Assembly (NCBI GenBank): GCA_002869585.1
Contig: PKUO01000079.1
Coordinates: forward strand, 1 to 34,902
DNA: 34,902 nucleotides
Reading direction: 5' to 3'
Source: Sedimenticola sp.
Lineage (GTDB): Bacteria > Pseudomonadota > Gammaproteobacteria > Chromatiales > Chromatiaceae
The notes under the pieces were generated by a model, which saw only the letters and a program-made list of their open reading frames with translations, made no database searches and had not been told where the DNA came from. The number at the start of each line of letters is the position of its first letter. The first letter of the stretch is position 1. The position numbers and the translations under genes are program-made. This document shows, one piece after another, positions 4,451 to 30,899 of this stretch.

Positions 4451-6436
4451 TCAGAAGATCAGGTTCATTACAGTCAACATCACCACCAGGAACAGTACTG
4501 TCATGATGCCGCCGGCCTTCATGAAGTCGGGTACCCGGTAACCGGCCGGTCCCATGATCAGGGCATTCACCTGATGGGTGGGGATGAGGAACGAGTTCGA
4601 GGTGGCGATCGCCACGGTCAGGGCGAACACGGCCGGGTTGGCGCCGGCGCCAATTGCAATGTTGACCGCCAGGGGCACCAGCAGTACCGTCGCGCCCACA
4701 TTTGACATCACCAGGGTGAAGAAGGTCGCCAGGGCCGCCACCGATGCCTGTATCACCCAGATGGGCATGGTTCCGACCACCGACAACACCTGGTCGGCGA
4801 TCCACTTGGCGGTGCCGGTGGTTTCCACCGCCAGGCCCAGCGGGATCAGCGAGGCCAGCAGAAAAACCGTCTTCCAGCTCACTGCGTCATAAGCCTCCTC
4901 GATTTTCATGACACCGGAAAGCACCATGCCGATGGCGCCGGTCAGCAACGCCACCGACAGACGGATATCAGTAAACAGCACCATGCCCAGGGCAATGGCG
5001 AAGAAGATGGCCGCTGGCAGTACCTTGTTCGGGCGCAGCTCCTCGCGTGGATATTCGGTGGTTACCACAACAAAATCGCGGTTCTTTTCGATCCTGGCCA
5101 GGGCATCCCAGGCGGTATGCACCACCAGGGTATCGCCGGGGTGGAATGGCATGCTGCGGATATCGTCACCCTCGCGCATGGTTTCACCATCGCGGTGCAG
5201 GCCGATCATGGCCAGTCCATAGGTCTTGCGCATCCAGACATCACGTGCACTCTTGCCGATCAGTTTGGAGCCGGGGGGGATGACCACTTCGGCGATACCT
5301 GACTTGGCCGAGGAGAGCGATTCAGCGAAGGTGCGCAGTTCGCTGCGCTTTTTCAGTCGGTACTTCTCTATAAAATGGGCCAGATCGTTGGGATCGGCGA
5401 CCACGCCAAGCACCATGCCAGGGAGAATCTCGGTATCCCGGGCAATGGTGCTGGGACCAACCCGGCTCTCTTCGCCGGAACGCTTGCTGGCAATCACGCG
5501 CACCCGGTAGCTGGTCTCGACGTCATCCAGCAGGCTGCCGATCAGGTCGCTCTCATTCGGCACCACCAGCTCGGAGAGTTGGTAGTCGACGCCATAGACA
5601 TCGTGGAAATACTGCATAGGATCCGATCCGCTGGTGCTGCTTTCACTCTTGGTGGCGGGCAGAACAAATCGGCCAGCCAATACAAAATAGAGAATGCCGG
5701 TAGTGACCAGCGCCAGGCCAATAGGGGTGACTGAGAACAGGCCCCAGGTATCCATCTGCTGATCGCTGGGTAGCGCCTTGTTTGAGGTGAGGATCAGGTC
5801 ATTGAGCAGGATCAGGGGGCTGGAACCGACCATGGTCATGGTGCCGCCGAGGATTGCAGTAAAGCCCATGGGCATCAGCAGGCGCGACATGGGTAGTCCG
5901 GAGCGTGCAGAGATACGCGAAACTACCGGTAGAAAAAGAGCCGCCGCGCCGACGTTCTGCATGAACGAGGAGATAAAGCCCACAGTCGCCGAGATGATGG
6001 GAATGATGCGTCCCTCGGTAGTGCCGCCCACCTTGAGAATAAAGGCGGCCACCTTGCTCATAAGGCCTGTCTTGTCCAGGCCGGCGCCGATGATCATGAC
6101 CGCGATGATGGAGATCACCGCATTCGAGGAGAAGCCGTCAAACAGATGTTTGTTATCCACCAGTCCCTGTTCCAGCCCCATCACCGGGGCCAAAAGCGAG
6201 GTCAGTCCGAGCAGCACCATGACGGTTGCCGCTGCGACATCCACACTTACCACCTCGAAGGCGAACAGGTAGATGGTCAGCATCAAAATAGCGCTAACCC
6301 AGGCTATCTCGACGGAAGGGACCTGGGTTGCCAGATATAGGGTCAAAGCTGCGAATATTACAGCCGCGACAATCTGTTTGGGGGAAAGTATTCCTGGTTT
6401 TGAGATTGTCTGTTCTTCATCAGCAAGCTTATTCAT
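4451..6436 (-). CDS. SLC13/DASS-type anion permease with two TrkA-C (RCK_C) domains
   Basis: A 661-residue inner-membrane protein. An N-terminal block of hydrophobic helices (from about residue 22) includes the DASS-like segment GFISSFMQNVGAAALFLPVV and GGTMTMVGSSPLILLN. A soluble middle region (about 275-450) holds two TrkA-C-like modules, one around YQLSELVVPNESDLIG and one around IAEVVIPPGSKLIGKSARD. A second helical block ends in NSFLIPTHQVNALIMGP. This architecture is typical of bacterial SLC13 family permeases annotated as sulfate or dicarboxylate transporters; the substrate cannot be read from sequence. The start follows a purine-rich AGAGAGAGAG ribosome binding region. It lies 145 bp downstream of the Usp-like gene on the same strand and may share its sigma-54 promoter. 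Confidence 0.92.
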   Translation of the reverse strand: MNKLADEEQTISKPGILSPKQIVAAVIFAALTLYLATQVPSVEIAWVSAILMLTIYLFAFEVVSVDVAAATVMVLLGLTSLLAPVMGLEQGLVDNKHLFDGFSSNAVISIIAVMIIGAGLDKTGLMSKVAAFILKVGGTTEGRIIPIISATVGFISSFMQNVGAAALFLPVVSRISARSGLPMSRLLMPMGFTAILGGTMTMVGSSPLILLNDLILTSNKALPSDQQMDTWGLFSVTPIGLALVTTGILYFVLAGRFVLPATKSESSTSGSDPMQYFHDVYGVDYQLSELVVPNESDLIGSLLDDVETSYRVRVIASKRSGEESRVGPSTIARDTEILPGMVLGVVADPNDLAHFIEKYRLKKRSELRTFAESLSSAKSGIAEVVIPPGSKLIGKSARDVWMRKTYGLAMIGLHRDGETMREGDDIRSMPFHPGDTLVVHTAWDALARIEKNRDFVVVTTEYPREELRPNKVLPAAIFFAIALGMVLFTDIRLSVALLTGAIGMVLSGVMKIEEAYDAVSWKTVFLLASLIPLGLAVETTGTAKWIADQVLSVVGTMPIWVIQASVAALATFFTLVMSNVGATVLLVPLAVNIAIGAGANPAVFALTVAIATSNSFLIPTHQVNALIMGPAGYRVPDFMKAGGIMTVLFLVVMLTVMNLIF

Positions 6437-6581
6437 TCTCTCTCTCTTGATTACTTCATGTTCTGTCAGGGGTGCAGTTCCTGAGTTGTAATAATTATCA
6501 GTCGCGTAAATCTCTAGACCAACATGGGGCCTGGATCAACGACCCAATGCCCCAGCGTTCTGGGTGGGAGTTCTGCGTATC

Positions 6582-7133
6582 TCAGGCAGCGGATTTTTTG
6601 GCTGTGCGAATTTCTGGCTGGTCTTCTATCAACACCAGTGGCACAGGTATGCGGCTGCCACGTGTGGGTATTATATCCTCAATCAGCACCTTGGCGGCAG
6701 TGTCGTCTGGCATGGCGACCAGAAACATCAGAGAGGGATGGTTGCAGATGTAGTCGGTGATGGCCTCGGCGGCGCTGTCACCGAGCTGGATGCGCAGGCA
6801 TTGCAGACCGGCCTGCTGGATACGAATTTCCAGGGGGGTGATTTTTGCAGCATCGCTGATCCCGTGAATCAGCAGATCAATGCAGGCGTTCTGGCGCTGG
6901 GCGGCCTCAATGGCATAACTCAGGGGTGCGCCCAGGCCTCTGCCGTCGCTGATCAGGGCGATACGCTTGGATATCGGGTTACCCGGATGCCTGGGTGCGT
7001 TGGATGTCTTTTTCACGTTTTGCGAGCCATAACCCAGTACACGCATTTTTTCGTTTATGGACAGGTATTCGCCGGCATCCTGGTAGGCCAGGCCGGAAAG
7101 CATTTTCTTCAAGCTGTTGCTGAGTTTTTTCAT
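6582..7133 (-). CDS. UspA-like (universal stress protein-like) protein
   Basis: A 183-residue soluble protein. After a basic N-terminal segment of about 55 residues, the remainder resembles a single Usp-type alpha/beta domain: strand SKRIALISDGRGLG, helix PLSYAIEAAQRQ, strand ACIDLLIHG, strand LQCLRIQLGD, then LMFLVAMPDD and C-terminal strand VPLVLIED. The classic ATP-binding G-X2-G-X9-G-S/T motif is not evident. In several bacteria such proteins sit beside SLC13-type permeases, as here, which suggests a role in controlling the transporter or in its stress response. The gene lies behind a near-consensus sigma-54 promoter about 23 bp upstream of its ATG after the predicted transcription start. 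The family call is by fold pattern and is moderate. Confidence 0.6.
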   Translation of the reverse strand: MKKLSNSLKKMLSGLAYQDAGEYLSINEKMRVLGYGSQNVKKTSNAPRHPGNPISKRIALISDGRGLGAPLSYAIEAAQRQNACIDLLIHGISDAAKITPLEIRIQQAGLQCLRIQLGDSAAEAITDYICNHPSLMFLVAMPDDTAAKVLIEDIIPTRGSRIPVPLVLIEDQPEIRTAKKSAA

Positions 7134-7166
7134 TATCGCGATCCAAATATTAAACTTCCCTTATGT

Positions 7167-7182
7167 AGCAACCCCTGTGCCA
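7167..7182 (-). promoter_or_regulatory. Sigma-54 (-24/-12) promoter for the Usp-like gene
   Basis: Read on the minus strand the sequence is TGGCACAGGGGTTGCT, against the RpoN consensus TGGCACR-N4-TTGCW. The GG (7181-7180) and GC (7169-7168) doublets are separated by exactly ten bases, as required. The predicted transcription start near 7156 leaves a short leader before the ATG at 7133. It points away from the two-component genes and toward the Usp-like and SLC13 genes. Confidence 0.8.
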
Positions 7183-7243
7183 CAATATTGTTGGAATAAT
7201 GTATTGTTTTGATTGATATTTTATTTCACCCAATCATTGCTGT

Positions 7244-7260
7244 TGTTGCAATGTGCAACA
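7244..7260. promoter_or_regulatory. Palindromic activator site 1 (NtrC-family type)
   Basis: TGTTGCA-ATG-TGCAACA is a perfect 7-bp inverted repeat with a 3-bp spacer. Its centre is about 95 bp upstream of the predicted sigma-54 start site near 7156, a normal position for an upstream activating sequence of an NtrC-type regulator. Such a regulator is encoded 1.6 kb away. Binding is inferred. Confidence 0.6.
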
Positions 7261-7269
7261 TTCGCTGTC

Positions 7270-7283
7270 TGTTGCGGCCAACA
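7270..7283. promoter_or_regulatory. Palindromic activator site 2, similar to site 1
   Basis: TGTTGCGGCCAACA repeats the TGTTGC...CAACA pattern of site 1, with a shorter spacer and 5-6 bp arms. It lies about 25 bp further from the sigma-54 promoter, i.e. roughly two to two and a half helical turns away. Paired sites of this kind allow cooperative binding of NtrC/DctD-like activator dimers. Functional assignment is inferred. Confidence 0.45.
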
Positions 7284-7323
7284 AACAGTCGACAATGCAA
7301 TCAGACCTTGAGTTTGCTAAGAT

Positions 7324-7340
7324 CGTTTCATTTTGAAACG
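7324..7340. promoter_or_regulatory. Inverted repeat just upstream of the kinase start
   Basis: CGTTTCA-TTT-TGAAACG is a perfect 7-bp inverted repeat with a 3-bp loop, ending 17 bases before ATG 7358. It has no T-run and could be an operator or an mRNA hairpin affecting kinase translation. No known regulator motif is recognised. Confidence 0.35.
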
Positions 7341-7357
7341 GATGGTTGCAATTTGTT

Positions 7358-8761
7358 ATGGCTGCCTTGTTCGACCTGACCAGTCTGCGTGGCAAGATCA
7401 CCAGCGCCTACATCACCCTGGTGGTGAGTACGCTGGTGCTTGGCCTGATCGCCTTTTCGGATCTGCTGTTCCTCGAGCGTCAGGTGACCGAAGGGGAGGT
7501 GGTTGCCGATCTCAAGGATGCGGTCCTGGAGATGCGCCGCGAGGAAAAAAATCTGTTTCTCTACCAGAGCGTCGATGCACTCTCCCGGGCCGACGAACAT
7601 GCGGCGCTCTCCCTGGAGATTCTGCACAACTACCAGAGCACCCTGGGGACCATCATCAGCGAGACCAATCCGCTGGCGATGATCGCTACCCTGGAGACCT
7701 ACCGCGATAACCTGGGGCGCTGGCAAACGGCATCGATCATCGACCGGGAACTTCTGCAAAAGGATCTACGGACCCTGGGGCACCGAATCTATGTCGCGGC
7801 CGAATCCCTGTCCAGTCGGGAGCGGCGGGTGCTGGAGTCAGCGGTGCGGAAGTCCCAGTGGTTTTTGTTCATCTCGCTGTTGCTGATCGGCGTATCCATC
7901 GTCATCGTTGGGCGCCAACTGAAACGCGTGGCGGTTACCCCGCTCAAGCAGTTGGAGTCGCACCTGATGCCGATTGCCCAGGGGCGTTTCAAACACTTGC
8001 AGACGCCGTCTGCCGATCGGGAGTTCGTTACCTTCACCAATGCCTTCAACCGCATGCTCAAGGAACTGGAGATTCGCCAGAAGCGTATGCTGCAGGCGGA
8101 GAAGCTGGCATCCCTGGGTATTCTTGCTTCGGGGGTAGCCCACGAACTGAACAACCCCTTGTCGAATATCTCGTCCTCCTGTCAGCTGCTTATGGAGGAG
8201 CTGAATGAGGCGGACCCGGAGCAACTCAATGCCTGGCTGCGGCAGATCGATAGCGAAACCGAGCGGGGCCGCAACATAGTGCGAACCCTGCTGGATTTCG
8301 GCAGGCAACGGGTGTTTCACAAGGGTCGGCTGAGCCTGCGGGAGCTGATCAATGAGACGGAAGTGATTATCGGCAAAACCCTCCAGCAATACGCGGCGAA
8401 GCTGACTGTCAATGTATCGGATGATCTGTGTGTGGAGGTTGACAAGCAACGCATACAGCAGCTGTTCATCAACCTCATTCAGAATGCCCTGCATGCCGGT
8501 GGGGAAGGGGTTGATCTGCGCATCAGCGCAATGCTCTGCAAGCGCGGTGTCACGATGATTCCCGAGGGTGCGGAGGTGGCCGGCAATCTCAAGTGCATCA
8601 CCGATTACCAGGGTCAGTTCGTGGAGATCCTGGTGAGCGATAACGGCCCCGGCATACCGCGTGCGAGTCTCAACCGGGTATTTGACCCCTTTTACACCAC
8701 CAGCGAGCCGGGGCAGGGTGTTGGCCTCGGCCTGTTCATCGTGCAGGAGATAGTGCGCTAA
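7358..8761 (+). CDS. Sensor histidine kinase (NtrB/DctB-like class), truncated by an in-frame TAA
   Basis: Membrane-bound kinase with TM1 at about residues 14-36, a helical sensor region of roughly 130 residues, TM2 near 166-184, a HAMP-like linker, a HisKA helix with SGVAHELNNP (phospho-acceptor His at about 262), an N box (FINLIQNALHAGG), a G1 box (VSDNGPGIP), an F box (VFDPFYTT) and a G2 box (GQGVGLGLFIVQEIVR). A TAA at 8759-8761 then ends the frame, although homologous sequence continues in the same frame for 29 more codons. The lost end carries the last ATP-lid strand region (EGKGTRVIVLLP). ATG 7358 is preferred; TTG 7346 would add four residues. The partner regulator follows directly, so the pair should phosphorelay; whether the truncated kinase works is uncertain. 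Confidence 0.85.
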   Translation: MAALFDLTSLRGKITSAYITLVVSTLVLGLIAFSDLLFLERQVTEGEVVADLKDAVLEMRREEKNLFLYQSVDALSRADEHAALSLEILHNYQSTLGTIISETNPLAMIATLETYRDNLGRWQTASIIDRELLQKDLRTLGHRIYVAAESLSSRERRVLESAVRKSQWFLFISLLLIGVSIVIVGRQLKRVAVTPLKQLESHLMPIAQGRFKHLQTPSADREFVTFTNAFNRMLKELEIRQKRMLQAEKLASLGILASGVAHELNNPLSNISSSCQLLMEELNEADPEQLNAWLRQIDSETERGRNIVRTLLDFGRQRVFHKGRLSLRELINETEVIIGKTLQQYAAKLTVNVSDDLCVEVDKQRIQQLFINLIQNALHAGGEGVDLRISAMLCKRGVTMIPEGAEVAGNLKCITDYQGQFVEILVSDNGPGIPRASLNRVFDPFYTTSEPGQGVGLGLFIVQEIVR

Positions 8762-8851
8762 CACGATGGTTGTCTCGCCATTGCTTCCCATGAGGGTAAA
8801 GGGACCCGGGTGATTGTACTGTTGCCTATCGAGGAGCCGGAGAGTGAATGA
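8762..8851 (+). other. Kinase C-terminal remnant downstream of the premature stop
   Basis: Immediately after the TAA the same frame reads HDGCLAIASHEGKGTRV and then IVLLP, to a TGA at 8849-8851. This is the expected end of a HATPase_c domain. A single substitution (for example CAA or GAA to TAA) explains the interruption. The regulator's GTG start overlaps the end of this remnant, which is where the intact kinase gene would have ended. Confidence 0.85.
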
Positions 8852-10229
8852 GCATGAGGTTGTTGCTCACAAGATACTGATCGTCGATGACGAGGCGACC
8901 GCAGTGGACAATCTGGCCCATGTCTGCCGCAAACAGGGTTATGCTGTCACCACCCGGACCACTGGTATGGGCGCCCTGGAAGCATTGGAGAAGGGTCGTT
9001 TCGACGTGGTGTTGACCGATCTGCGCATGGAGAAAGTGAATGGCATGGCCATTTTGCAGCGCGCCAAGGAGTTGGACCCTGAAACAGCGGTAGTTCTGAT
9101 AACCGGCTACGCCACGCTTGATTCTGCAGTGGAGGCGATGAAGGCCGGGGCATTTCACTACATTGCCAAACCCTTTCGCCTGGATGAGGTGCGTGAGGTG
9201 GTGCGCAATGCCCTTGAGTTGGTGAACCTGAAGCGGGAAAACCGCCAGCTAAAGGCACAACTGACCGGCAGCCAAAGCGGCCCGAGTATCATCACCCAGG
9301 ATGCGATCATGCAGCGTCTGCTCGAGACGGCGCGGCAAATTGCGCCCACCGACACGAATGTGCTGATCAGTGGTGAAAGCGGCACAGGCAAGGAGTTGCT
9401 GGCCCGCTATATCCACCGGTACAGCGATCGGCGCGAAAAGACCTTTCAGGCGGTCAATTGTGGCGCCCTGCAGGAGGAGTTGCTGGTCAACGAGCTGTTT
9501 GGTCATGAAAAGGGCGCCTACACCGGAGCAGCCGAGGCGCGTGCCGGTCTGATCGAGGCCTCCGACGGCGGTACCCTGTTTCTGGACGAGATTGCGGAGA
9601 TGTCCCTGGGGATGCAGGTCAAGCTGTTGCGGGTGATTCAGGAGCGAGAGGTCCAGCGTCTCGGCTCGACCCGTTCAATTACCGTGGATATCCGCCTGAT
9701 CGCCGCGACCCACCGTGAGTTGCGTGACGAGGTGGCTGCGGGACGCTTTCGTCAGGATCTCTATTACCGTCTAGATGTGGTCGGAATGCAGCTTCCGCCG
9801 TTGGCCCAACGGCGTGACGATATCCCGCTGCTGGCCTTCTATTTTCTGCGCAAGCATGCAGCGCGCATGGGTCGCGCCGTCGACGATATCGATCCCGAGG
9901 CCATGGCGGTGTTGCTCGATTATGACTATCCGGGGAATATCCGCGAGCTCGAAAATATCATCGAGCGCGGTGTGGCGCTGGCCCAACAGGGGCAGTTTAC
10001 TGTCGCCAATCTGCCCGTCACCCTTTCAGAGCATGCGGTGCATGTGGTGCGTCAGCAGGCCGGGCGGCTACCCACCCTCGCCGAGCGTGAGGCCGACTAT
10101 ATCCGCTATGTGCTGGAACGCAGTGGCGATAACCGCACCCGAGCGGCGAAGGTTCTCGGTATCGATAGAGTCTCCTTGTGGCGCAAGCTGAAGAAATACG
10201 GTATGGATGATAGTGGCAACGGAGGTTGA
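8844..10229 (+). CDS. Sigma-54-dependent response regulator, NtrC family
   Basis: A 461-residue activator with the full NtrC layout. The receiver domain has ILIVDDEATA and the phospho-acceptor Asp at about 59 (VVLTDLRM). The AAA+ domain has Walker A GESGTGKE, the sigma-54 contact loop as GAYTGA (about 224-229; the common form is GAFTGA), Walker B GGTLFLDEI and the arginine-finger region. A Fis-type helix-turn-helix lies at the C-terminus (NRTRAAKVLGIDRVSLWRKLKKYG). The start is GTG 8844, chosen because GAGGAG lies 7 bases upstream and the upstream kinase frame ends at 8851, giving translational coupling. It probably activates the divergent sigma-54 promoter at 7167-7182 through the palindromes at 7244-7283. 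Confidence 0.93.
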   Translation: MNEHEVVAHKILIVDDEATAVDNLAHVCRKQGYAVTTRTTGMGALEALEKGRFDVVLTDLRMEKVNGMAILQRAKELDPETAVVLITGYATLDSAVEAMKAGAFHYIAKPFRLDEVREVVRNALELVNLKRENRQLKAQLTGSQSGPSIITQDAIMQRLLETARQIAPTDTNVLISGESGTGKELLARYIHRYSDRREKTFQAVNCGALQEELLVNELFGHEKGAYTGAAEARAGLIEASDGGTLFLDEIAEMSLGMQVKLLRVIQEREVQRLGSTRSITVDIRLIAATHRELRDEVAAGRFRQDLYYRLDVVGMQLPPLAQRRDDIPLLAFYFLRKHAARMGRAVDDIDPEAMAVLLDYDYPGNIRELENIIERGVALAQQGQFTVANLPVTLSEHAVHVVRQQAGRLPTLAEREADYIRYVLERSGDNRTRAAKVLGIDRVSLWRKLKKYGMDDSGNGG

Positions 10230-29042: not shown

Positions 29043-30899
29043 TTACTCGGTGGTGTGTGTGGGTTTCAATGCCTGGCTCCACAGATCTCTGTCACGGCTG
29101 TAATTTGCGATGGCAGTGATGATCTCGTCCAGGCGCTCTTGTCTCGGGACTGCTGCCTGTATGGTCTTGTAGCCGGCGGCATCTTGCCCGAAATTGTGCT
29201 CGATGTTTGCGATGAAGCGATTGAATTTAGTCATGGCCTGTTTGATCTCTGGTGCCCGATTCACATTCCACCATTTGCGTTTGTCGCTTAATAGGGCTTT
29301 CAATCGGTTCAGGTTATCCATGATCTGATCCTGCTTCAGCAGGTATTTTGGGAGCAAGGCTTTTTCAGTGGTATTCACAATATCGGTAATCCGTGCTTTC
29401 GAGACTGTTTCTGCCGGAAAGCCGGATGCTGTCATTTTTTCTATGGAGAAGAGCATGACATCGCCGTAAAACTGCCGCTCGAATTCCAGGGACAGATCTA
29501 TCAATGCCTGCCGGTGATCAACGCCTGCTCGAAACTCCGATTGCCCGGTCTCTTCAATGGTTCGCTTGTGGAGCATGGGCAGATTGGCGGAGACAAAGCG
29601 TTCATTGATTTCCGACTTTACCAGGCGTCCGAGCACGGGACCTGCCATGCGCAGTTTGAGTGGTGCAAACGGGATGAAATAGTTCAGCCCCTCTGGGCGG
29701 CAGACGAAATTGCCAGTGTATACGGTTCGTGCCGGAGTGATCGTCTCGGGTCTTATGCTGTACTCGTAAAAGCTTTTTCGTGTCGGGTGTTCGCCGTCAA
29801 AAAAACCGTTGATCTTTTGGGCCAGGTGCGTGAAGCATTGAATATGGTCATGCCTGCCGGTTATTGGGCAGGGGTAAGAGAAGGCCTCTGCGGGCGTGTC
29901 GAACCCGAACAGATCGGCGAGGTCGTGATAGGCGGCATCGGTGGCATTGGCAGCTGAGGCGTGGAAGGAGCACTCCTGCTCCGGTTCGTTCATGCAGATG
30001 GCATCGAGAAACCCGATAATGTCCTGCAACAGATTGCCGGCCATAACGGCGGGCGAGACAGGAGGATCGCCCACCACCTTTCCGGTCAGTATGTTTGTCT
30101 GTGTATGGGTGAAGATATGATCAAGCCAATAAAAATAGTTCAGGGCGTAGCAATCATGCTCCTCATGTTGTGAGGGCGGATTGACGCGGAACTCCTGATC
30201 GCTATCGATAAAATAGAAGAGTCGCTTATCTTCGCTGTGTTGGTACAACCGCTGTAGTTTGAGATAGGTTAGGTTTCGCGTAATCGATGCGCCTTTATGG
30301 TAGAAGGCGTGTGCATCGATGTCGCCGAAGATGCCCTTCAGTTCAGGTAGGAGCGATTGCGGTATCTGCCCAAGCAATTCGAGTTGCTGCTCTATCCCGA
30401 AATAGAGTGTTTGGACACCCTGGTTGCTGCATGCTTCGGCAATCGCCCGGTTCGCCTCTATATTCGCGGTGTGTTTTGAATCGTCGGCGATGAGCGCGGT
30501 TATTTTTGTGAAACGGTTGTTCTGCACGCCGCCATACTGGAAGGTTCTACATAATTCAACCAGGCTGTTTAGGCAGTTCTCCAGATGCCTTGGCCTGTCG
30601 GCAACAGGAATGACGATAACAAACTGGTGCCGCTGCCTGTTGCTCTCGGAAGAGATCAAGCTTTCCAGTAACCGGAAAAGCGATTGATACAGGGTCAACC
30701 AGTGTTCGTTTGGACTATGTCTGTTGAATGCTTTTTCCAGACATGAAATCGATTGGCGACAGCGTTCAATGCCCGCTGTTTCGATTTGTAGATCGTCTGC
30801 ATCCGGCTTTTGCCATAGTGCCCTGAGTTCCGCTGCTGTTGATATGTCGTCATGGGAATCCAGGACTTTTCGCAGGAGATTGTCAAAATCCGGTTCCAT
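29043..30899 (-). CDS. Large GT-A-like (glycosyltransferase family 2-type) protein
   Basis: A 618-residue protein. An N-terminal helical region (1-88) precedes a GT-A-like domain: the first strand and loop QFVIVIPVADRPRHLENCLNSL (92-113), IADDS (137-141), a region of repeat-free helices, KGASITRNLTYLKLQRL, and DSD in YFIDSDQEFRV (232-234), the likely DxD metal site. The rest (about 300-618) contains further conserved-looking segments (NYFYWLDHIFTHTQTN, GNFVCRPEGLNYFIPF) and a helical C-terminus. It has no membrane helix. It is much longer than common GT2 enzymes and I recognise no close family. It lies 15 bp after the ThDP enzyme and 14 bp before the sulfotransferase. Confidence 0.6.
   Translation of the reverse strand: MEPDFDNLLRKVLDSHDDISTAAELRALWQKPDADDLQIETAGIERCRQSISCLEKAFNRHSPNEHWLTLYQSLFRLLESLISSESNRQRHQFVIVIPVADRPRHLENCLNSLVELCRTFQYGGVQNNRFTKITALIADDSKHTANIEANRAIAEACSNQGVQTLYFGIEQQLELLGQIPQSLLPELKGIFGDIDAHAFYHKGASITRNLTYLKLQRLYQHSEDKRLFYFIDSDQEFRVNPPSQHEEHDCYALNYFYWLDHIFTHTQTNILTGKVVGDPPVSPAVMAGNLLQDIIGFLDAICMNEPEQECSFHASAANATDAAYHDLADLFGFDTPAEAFSYPCPITGRHDHIQCFTHLAQKINGFFDGEHPTRKSFYEYSIRPETITPARTVYTGNFVCRPEGLNYFIPFAPLKLRMAGPVLGRLVKSEINERFVSANLPMLHKRTIEETGQSEFRAGVDHRQALIDLSLEFERQFYGDVMLFSIEKMTASGFPAETVSKARITDIVNTTEKALLPKYLLKQDQIMDNLNRLKALLSDKRKWWNVNRAPEIKQAMTKFNRFIANIEHNFGQDAAGYKTIQAAVPRQERLDEIITAIANYSRDRDLWSQALKPTHTTE

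Follow-up and report, generated by a model that had tools for sequence, protein, structure and literature searches.

Sulfur-oxidizing bacteria produce much sulfate and must also obtain bicarbonate, and to our knowledge the sensing and the movement of these anions in such organisms are poorly known. A locus of Sedimenticola sp. bears on this problem, because an intergenic region there separates a transporter gene and its small neighbour from a divergent two-component system. What does this region control, which regulator serves it and to which signal would it respond? The stretch of DNA analysed here, called the window in the following, has 34,902 nucleotides (contig PKUO01000079.1, positions 1-34,902, assembly GCA_002869585.1) and corresponds to contig C98 of the 3.93-Mb genome (G000). 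A first-pass annotation had proposed a sigma-54 promoter with two activator palindromes and an anion-responsive transport switch; its observation is confirmed in part and its interpretation is partly supported. We propose, with a probability of roughly 0.55, that the intergenic DNA forms the control element of a local sigma-54 two-component switch, and that the shared anion behind it is probably a sulfur oxyanion. New here are the conservation evidence, a corrected operator pair, an IHF element and the occurrence of one sigma-54 two-component family beside three unrelated families of anion transporters.

Results

The minus strand of the window encodes an SLC13-type permease of 661 amino acids with TrkA_C domains (4451-6436; CitMHS 1.8e-71, TrkA_C 1.7e-15, Na_sulph_symp 6.2e-11). 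Its Pfam transporter domains score above the cut-off, while the match to the NCBIfam dass subfamily stays below it (103.4 bits, cut-off 198.6). The gene for a 183-amino-acid protein with a Usp-like fold in the AlphaFold2 model (6582-7133, minus strand) is the first gene behind the predicted promoter. Divergently oriented are the genes for a sensor histidine kinase with HisKA and HATPase_c domains (7358-8761, plus strand) and for an NtrC-family response regulator with a REC domain, a sigma-54 AAA+ domain and a Fis-type HTH (about 8844-10229, plus strand). These domains were assigned by Pfam and both start codons are our reading. Frames and domains agree with the gene layout given by the first-pass annotation. 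The next minus-strand gene in the window reads as RecQ-like, judged from its frame. Two genes away from the SLC13 gene a metallo-beta-lactamase-fold protein (1643-2392) has a sub-cut-off likeness to a sulfur transferase/dioxygenase, and a reading frame of 618 amino acids at 29043-30899 has no Pfam match at 1e-5.

The Usp-like protein used as query in 55 relatives returned only itself and one weak match, and the sensor part of the kinase proved the useful bait. It has a match in 20 of 146 genomes of the family, the own genome included, and in 16 loci of a named genome collection; an alignment of the sensor found 15 of 369 genomes of the class at E <= 1e-12, again with the own genome. The SLC13 permease is far commoner (111/146 family genomes at E <= 1e-60). 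Among the close relatives that carry the locus are symbionts of Lamellibrachia, Escarpia, Codakia and Ctena (two bear the name Thiodiazotropha), and the more distant carriers include Thiogranum and Thiobacillus. The search for neighbours covered transporters, Usp, NhaD and the regulator. Counts over related loci are not counts of independent cases (for instance L086 and L087, or L013 to L015).

The putative -24/-12 promoter TGGCACAGGGGTTGCT lies on the minus strand at 7182-7167. It had been described as a match to the RpoN consensus with GG-N10-GC spacing, and the match to TGGCACNNNNNTTGCW is indeed exact; the transcript start predicted earlier, about 7156, follows if C7168 is taken as -12. 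Exact matches to TGGCACNNNNNTTGCW occur four times in the 3.93-Mb genome, compared with one for the reversed control pattern, and when the 330-nt upstream region was shuffled 200 times the promoter score was never reached. When up to two mismatches are allowed, the window shows no excess of the pattern (16 versus 23.6 expected); the promoter is therefore argued from the exact match together with its conservation.

Conservation was scored at 44 related loci with at least 200 nt upstream, without L122, which shares its contig with L076, and L083, whose contig begins within the kinase. On the strand leading away from the kinase 35 of these loci score at least 9/11 and 29 at least 10/11, compared with 6/44 (at least 9/11) on the opposite strand. 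In a footprint alignment of 15 intergenic regions GG-N10-GC is present in every row; L074, whose promoter is missing, was left out of the alignment and entered as a miss in the 44-locus count. Altogether a good -24/-12 element was not found in nine of the 44 loci (L071, L074, L090, L091, L093, L095, L096, L125 and L131). L074 has lost promoter and usp and retains SLC13, and in L093, L095, L096 and L131 a SulP gene adjoins the kinase with no promoter found. Perfect palindromes are retained in L131 and L074 despite the lack of a good promoter.

As a control we used SLC13 homologues with neither kinase nor Usp in the locus, leaving out L024, L033 and L036, which have less than 400 nt upstream. 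Within 400 nt upstream a promoter score of at least 9 was reached in one of 21 loci and the palindrome was found in none of the 21. Since promoter and palindromes are thus all but missing from kinase-free SLC13 loci, the control element is a part of the kinase module rather than of SLC13 as such. A chance promoter was rejected on the genome-wide match count, the shuffles, the conservation in relatives and these control loci. The lack of conservation among relatives had been named as what would speak against the first-pass reading; in the comparison the promoter proved conserved, as did one of the two palindromes named, which also supports the Usp-like gene and the SLC13 permease as the probable targets. 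The regulator has the domains expected of an activator (Response_reg 2.6e-27, Sigma54_activat 1.1e-69, HTH_8 3e-12 in Pfam) and its sigma-54 contact loop (protein P0004) reads GAYTGA, an F-to-Y variant of GAFTGA that should be functional. We are nearly certain that the promoter is real and that this regulator serves it.

Two palindromes had been claimed upstream of the predicted start, of which one stands. The putative activator palindrome O1, TGTTGCAATGTGCAACA (7244-7260, core 7245-7259), is conserved, with the start of its core 77 nt upstream of the -24 element. The other, TGTTGCGGCCAACA (7270-7283), has no counterpart in 14 aligned relatives; it was rejected as an activator site, is private to this genome and probably has no functional role. 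Conservation identifies as the true pair of putative operators 7245-7259 and O2, GTTTCATTTTGAAAC (7325-7339), which lies beyond the interval of the first-pass annotation and 80 bp from the first. In 15 other SLC13-linked loci the best second palindrome is 79-81 bp away in ten, 91 bp away in two and 140-141 bp away in L084 and L124, L074 being the one locus with no score for this distance. In the footprint alignment O1 and O2 are recognisable in most rows and much of the sequence between them has diverged. A degenerate conserved half-site, O3 (GTTGCAATTTGTTAT, 7345-7359), aligned by eye, overlaps the kinase start and lies 20 bp from O2, centre to centre.

A perfect palindrome (10/10) occurs in 23 of the 44 related loci. 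The start-to-start spacing between palindrome and promoter, sought between 40 and 130 nt and only where the palindrome scores at least 9/10 (n=27), clusters at 67-69, 76-82, 90-92 and about 120-121 nt, which suggests a helical-face constraint. The spacer between them holds a perfect IHF consensus in 8 of these 27 loci, compared with 0.14 expected from mononucleotide shuffles, and in the footprint alignment a CAATAACTTA-like block fits the IHF consensus. The window's own spacer carries an IHF-like site with one mismatch to the consensus WATCARNNNNTTR (AAACAATACATTA, 7197-7209, minus strand).

The kinase-regulator operon may be read from an extended -10 element (TGCTAAGAT, 7315-7323, plus strand), proposed from its consensus match, and O2 follows directly 3' of it. 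Such a TGnTAnnnT element directly precedes O2 in 12 of 14 SLC13-linked loci examined (of 16), and a sigma-70-type scan for two hexamers gave no match. Because O2 abuts the extended -10 of the kinase gene, autorepression is likely: judged from its position, a regulator bound at O2 would block the promoter of the kinase operon.

The regulator looks local, since palindromes of the form GTTNCANNNTGNAAC are few in the genome and lie mostly here or within reading frames. Six are present in the 3.93 Mb, this locus accounting for two (the reversed control pattern has two), and of the other four three are inside long reading frames and one is outside. This last one (G000:C106:3005-3019, L120) lies upstream of a frame that we read as HlyD-like and is a possible second target.

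For the transporters we considered the 40 kinase loci whose upstream sequence exceeds 2 kb, for which L088, L098, L125 and L135 were further left out. By tblastn, 36 of them have a transporter gene within about 1.5 kb that is oriented away from the kinase. These genes belong to three unrelated families, SLC13 (16), SulP (17) and TauE/SafE (3); the type was checked with Pfam on two SulP and two TauE examples. The first-pass annotation had framed the switch around a Usp-SLC13 pair, which is correct for this genome and too narrow for the kinase family, as SulP or TauE/SafE stands beside it elsewhere. Since G000 has four SulP genes, a SulP neighbour would be rare by chance. No nearby divergent transporter was found in four of the 40 loci (L071, L090, L091 and L134); in L071 the transporter is 8 kb away and the kinase frame is cut, and in L090 and L091 it lies on the same strand. 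On a quick kinase tree, made without L122, L071, L133 and L083, the transporter labels require four changes, with some forks left open and L069 on a long branch.

Is the transporter the target, or does the promoter drive only usp, with a promoter of its own for SLC13 and the Usp-like protein as the conserved target? The position of usp as first gene and its presence at SLC13, SulP and TauE loci alike would fit the latter, as would the wider distribution of SLC13 compared with the kinase sensor (111 against 20 of 146 family genomes). However, L073, L080 and L081 have lost usp or carry it in shortened form and still keep promoter and SLC13, which argues that the permease and not usp is the kept target. 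Likewise L094 and L097 have promoter and SulP and no usp was found there, and a terminator-like site is absent from 6300-7400, the usp-SLC13 gap included. A promoter for usp only is hence quite improbable, and the transporter is very likely the main target of the switch.

SLC13 is followed on its own strand by a gene for NhaD in 10 of the 16 linked loci, directly or within about 0.5 kb in nine of them and at 1.7 kb in L075. The NhaD identity comes from an NCBIfam equivalog match of 665 bits (L122 as the example), and NhaD follows SLC13 also in the kinase-free locus L018. This neighbourhood points to Na+-coupled traffic.

Several neighbourhoods deserve mention on their own account. By our reading of the frames, L020 and L022 have a SulP gene directly upstream of SLC13 on the same strand with no kinase in the locus, an arrangement that fits a shared substrate. 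In L012-L016 the frame divergent from SLC13 reads as a LysR-type regulator and not as a kinase. A NuoL-type gene (L094:1182-3218) and a NuoB-type gene (L093:11559-12353) lie near SulP genes of the module, a possible link to inorganic-carbon uptake.

In the kinase two hydrophobic helices, identified by eye, flank a helical bundle that is followed by HisKA and HATPase_c, both above the Pfam cut-off. The model of the sensor domain consists of long helices (mean pLDDT 85.6) and is all-helical, and a search for Cache and PAS domains in Pfam gave no match up to E 1. Across 41 kinases, counted without L122, L083, L082 and kinase frames of 440 amino acids or less, Arg59, Glu62, Tyr114 and Gly140 are invariant; Arg137 is found in 40 of the 41 and Lys63 in 38, with Arg in its place in two. 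An anion-binding site in the sensor is a fair inference from the conserved Arg and Lys residues. Anion-responsive sensing, as suggested by the first-pass annotation, would fit these basic residues and the exchanged transporters, all of which belong to anion families. In Foldseek the whole sensor model is matched best by NarQ (E 4.1e-4). With a second aligner (VIA-align) many unrelated helical bundles rank equal to or above NarQ, which makes that comparison uninformative, and the relation to NarQ is therefore a lead only.

The Usp-like protein (P0001) matches no Pfam family up to E 1 and no NCBIfam family. The best Foldseek match of its model is the Usp domain of KdpD (7ji4, E 1.1e-4); Usp domains come top, with other Rossmann-type folds close behind. 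The model has a mean pLDDT of 76.4 and is of low confidence in the N-terminal third and at the C-terminal end. A profile of the Usp-like alignment against PDB sequences retrieved a designed protein (6.6e-7), and the rest of the matches were at 0.67 or weaker. In L092 (5889-7826) the reading frame of the module's TauE protein also contains two Usp stretches (PF00582), so that Usp and transporter are joined there in a single protein.

One feature of the locus was missed by the first-pass annotation: the kinase frame stops at a TAA (8759-8761), about 30 codons short of its relatives, and so loses its last roughly 30 residues. At this position Glu stands in 16 of the 17 aligned kinases and Asp in the remaining one. 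A search of the whole genome found one rpoN gene, with a TAA within the DNA-binding domain (L121) where G001 of the same genus has Glu. One might hence ask whether the locus is decaying, with kinase and rpoN broken and the promoter a relic in this genome. The two stops at conserved Glu positions, one of them in the sole rpoN, speak for this, as does the lack of a match to the kinase sensor in G001. However, glmS (L147) has a TAG where solved GlmS chains have Glu, and further sampled frames carry similar stops. As glmS is normally essential, a base error of the assembly is the likeliest cause. Furthermore, promoter, O1, O2, SLC13 and regulator are all intact. We consider decay improbable, and the premature stops at conserved Glu are probably assembly base errors or the mark of an unusual mutation pattern.

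By our reading, similar stops occur in DUF3501-like, ABC-transporter and dynamin-like genes (L143, L144 and L150) within a sample of 407 kb, in which some candidates for premature stops are ordinary gene junctions. Decoding of TAA and TAG as Glu was rejected, since 88 of 162 long-frame stops in the 407 kb are TAA (58) or TAG (30). ARAGORN, run on loci covering 44 tRNA matches, reported no suppressor anticodon; L196, partial at a contig end, gave no gene.

Discussion

The following mechanism would account for the locus. The helical bundle of the kinase, presumably periplasmic, would sense an anion, and the kinase would phosphorylate the NtrC-type regulator. The regulator would bind the GTTNCANNNTGNAAC palindromes, with O1, recognised by its conservation, as the putative upstream activating site of the -24/-12 promoter, and bending by IHF may bring O1 to the polymerase in many relatives. 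Transcription is expected to cover usp and SLC13, and nhaD as well in many relatives, a gene order that is conserved. From its place just below the extended -10, O2 may let the regulator limit its own synthesis. The output would be transport of the sensed anion.

Which anion this is may be approached from the targets. SLC13, SulP and TauE/SafE interchange behind one kinase family, and the substrate is thus most likely common to all three. The only kind of substrate that we know to be shared by the three families is sulfate or sulfite, and for a sulfur oxyanion (sulfate or sulfite) as the ligand we see about even odds. Against sulfate stands the presence of NhaD, which speaks for Na+-driven uptake, for which seawater sulfate would be an odd substrate.

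The main rival is the same switch for inorganic carbon, where the kinase would answer low bicarbonate and the transporters would import bicarbonate together with Na+. BicA, a Na+-dependent bicarbonate transporter, belongs to the SulP family; Na+ would be recycled by the NhaD encoded near SLC13, and a NuoL-type gene adjoins SulP in L094. The named carriers include animal symbionts and Thiobacillus, which are autotrophs. However, bicarbonate transport is not known for SLC13 or TauE/SafE. Further, the two linked SulP proteins that were tested pass the generic sulP cut-off and reach 176.5 and 120.3 bits, compared with a BicA cut-off of 880. For a sulfur-oxidizing chemolithoautotroph, one study describes proven SulP bicarbonate transporters: an E. 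coli yadF/cynT mutant regained growth at low CO2 with SulP-CS of Thiomicrospira pelophila, although the non-carboxysomal SulP of T. pelophila failed to rescue it, a failure that the authors grant may reflect misfolding (PMC12628692). On balance we regard inorganic carbon as a rather unlikely signal, and a sulfur oxyanion as the preferred one.

A switch for C4-dicarboxylate uptake, similar to DctB/DctD-dctA with other transporters, was weighed as well. C4-dicarboxylates can be substrates of SLC13 transporters and of DauA, a SulP member that is the second NCBIfam match (below the cut-off), and the operon logic and promoter architecture are as in dctA. In contrast, TauE/SafE is not known as a dicarboxylate family, and the sensor, modelled as a helical bundle, has neither a Cache nor a PAS domain in Pfam. 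There is thus a slim chance only that a dicarboxylate is the signal.

We suggest, tentatively and at less than even odds, that this unnamed sigma-54 two-component family serves sulfur-oxidizing chemolithoautotrophs, the symbionts of tubeworms and clams among them, as a general module of anion homeostasis. One sensor and one DNA motif would control whichever transporter family (SLC13, SulP or TauE/SafE) a lineage owns, and the Usp-like protein would tune the transporter as its cytoplasmic partner. Where unrelated transporters can be exchanged behind a fixed regulator, the substrate becomes easier to approach, because the transporters should move what the sensor binds. The module offers a sensor that can be assayed, a defined DNA motif and named relatives (Thiodiazotropha, the tubeworm symbionts, Thiogranum and Thiobacillus). 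It also provides a functional context for an SLC13 permease with TrkA_C domains that has close homologues in 111 of 146 family genomes. Among the best matches in open-licence literature, as far as the available portions of these texts go, no description of a kinase-regulator-Usp-transporter module was found.

Sigma-54 two-component systems of sulfur oxidizers have been described before. TspS/TspR and TcsS/TcsR of the Acidithiobacillia, which control sox and tetH, are likewise such systems with a palindromic activator site. As reported, the TspS sensor is an sCache_3_2 domain, the TspR site is TGTCCCAAATGGGACA and sox genes are targets (PMC6335251, PMC12194929). In the window TGTCCCAAATGGGACA has no match at up to three mismatches. 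Membership in TspSR is ruled out by the missing TGTCCCAAATGGGACA site, the absence of a Cache match up to E 1 and the helical sensor model.

The nitrate/nitrite sensors NarX and NarQ have a periplasmic four-helix bundle with a P-box Arg (Arg50 in NarQ). The sensor modelled here likewise resembles a membrane-adjacent helical bundle and has a conserved Arg in the first helix, Arg59, which may correspond to it. The difference is that a HisKA kinase with an NtrC-type partner is found here, with the motif MRREEKN. The Usp-like protein resembles the Usp domain of KdpD and stand-alone Usp proteins in its fold according to Foldseek, but has no Pfam Usp match and differs from Usp proteins by conserved N-terminal helices.

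The closest parallel in architecture is DctB/DctD-dctA, the system for C4-dicarboxylate uptake in rhizobia, to which the layout of the locus had been likened from the start. A divergent pair of kinase and NtrC-type regulator next to a transporter, tandem activator sites and a sigma-54 promoter are common to both, and this part of the comparison holds. However, transporter and sensor belong to other families: the transporter here is SLC13 (SulP or TauE in relatives) and not DctA (SLC1), and the sensor is a helical bundle with no Cache or PAS match in Pfam. Transporter family and sensor type rule out membership in DctBD. The module described here is further set apart by its Usp-like gene, by the frequent NhaD gene downstream and by its own palindrome, GTTNCANNNTGNAAC.
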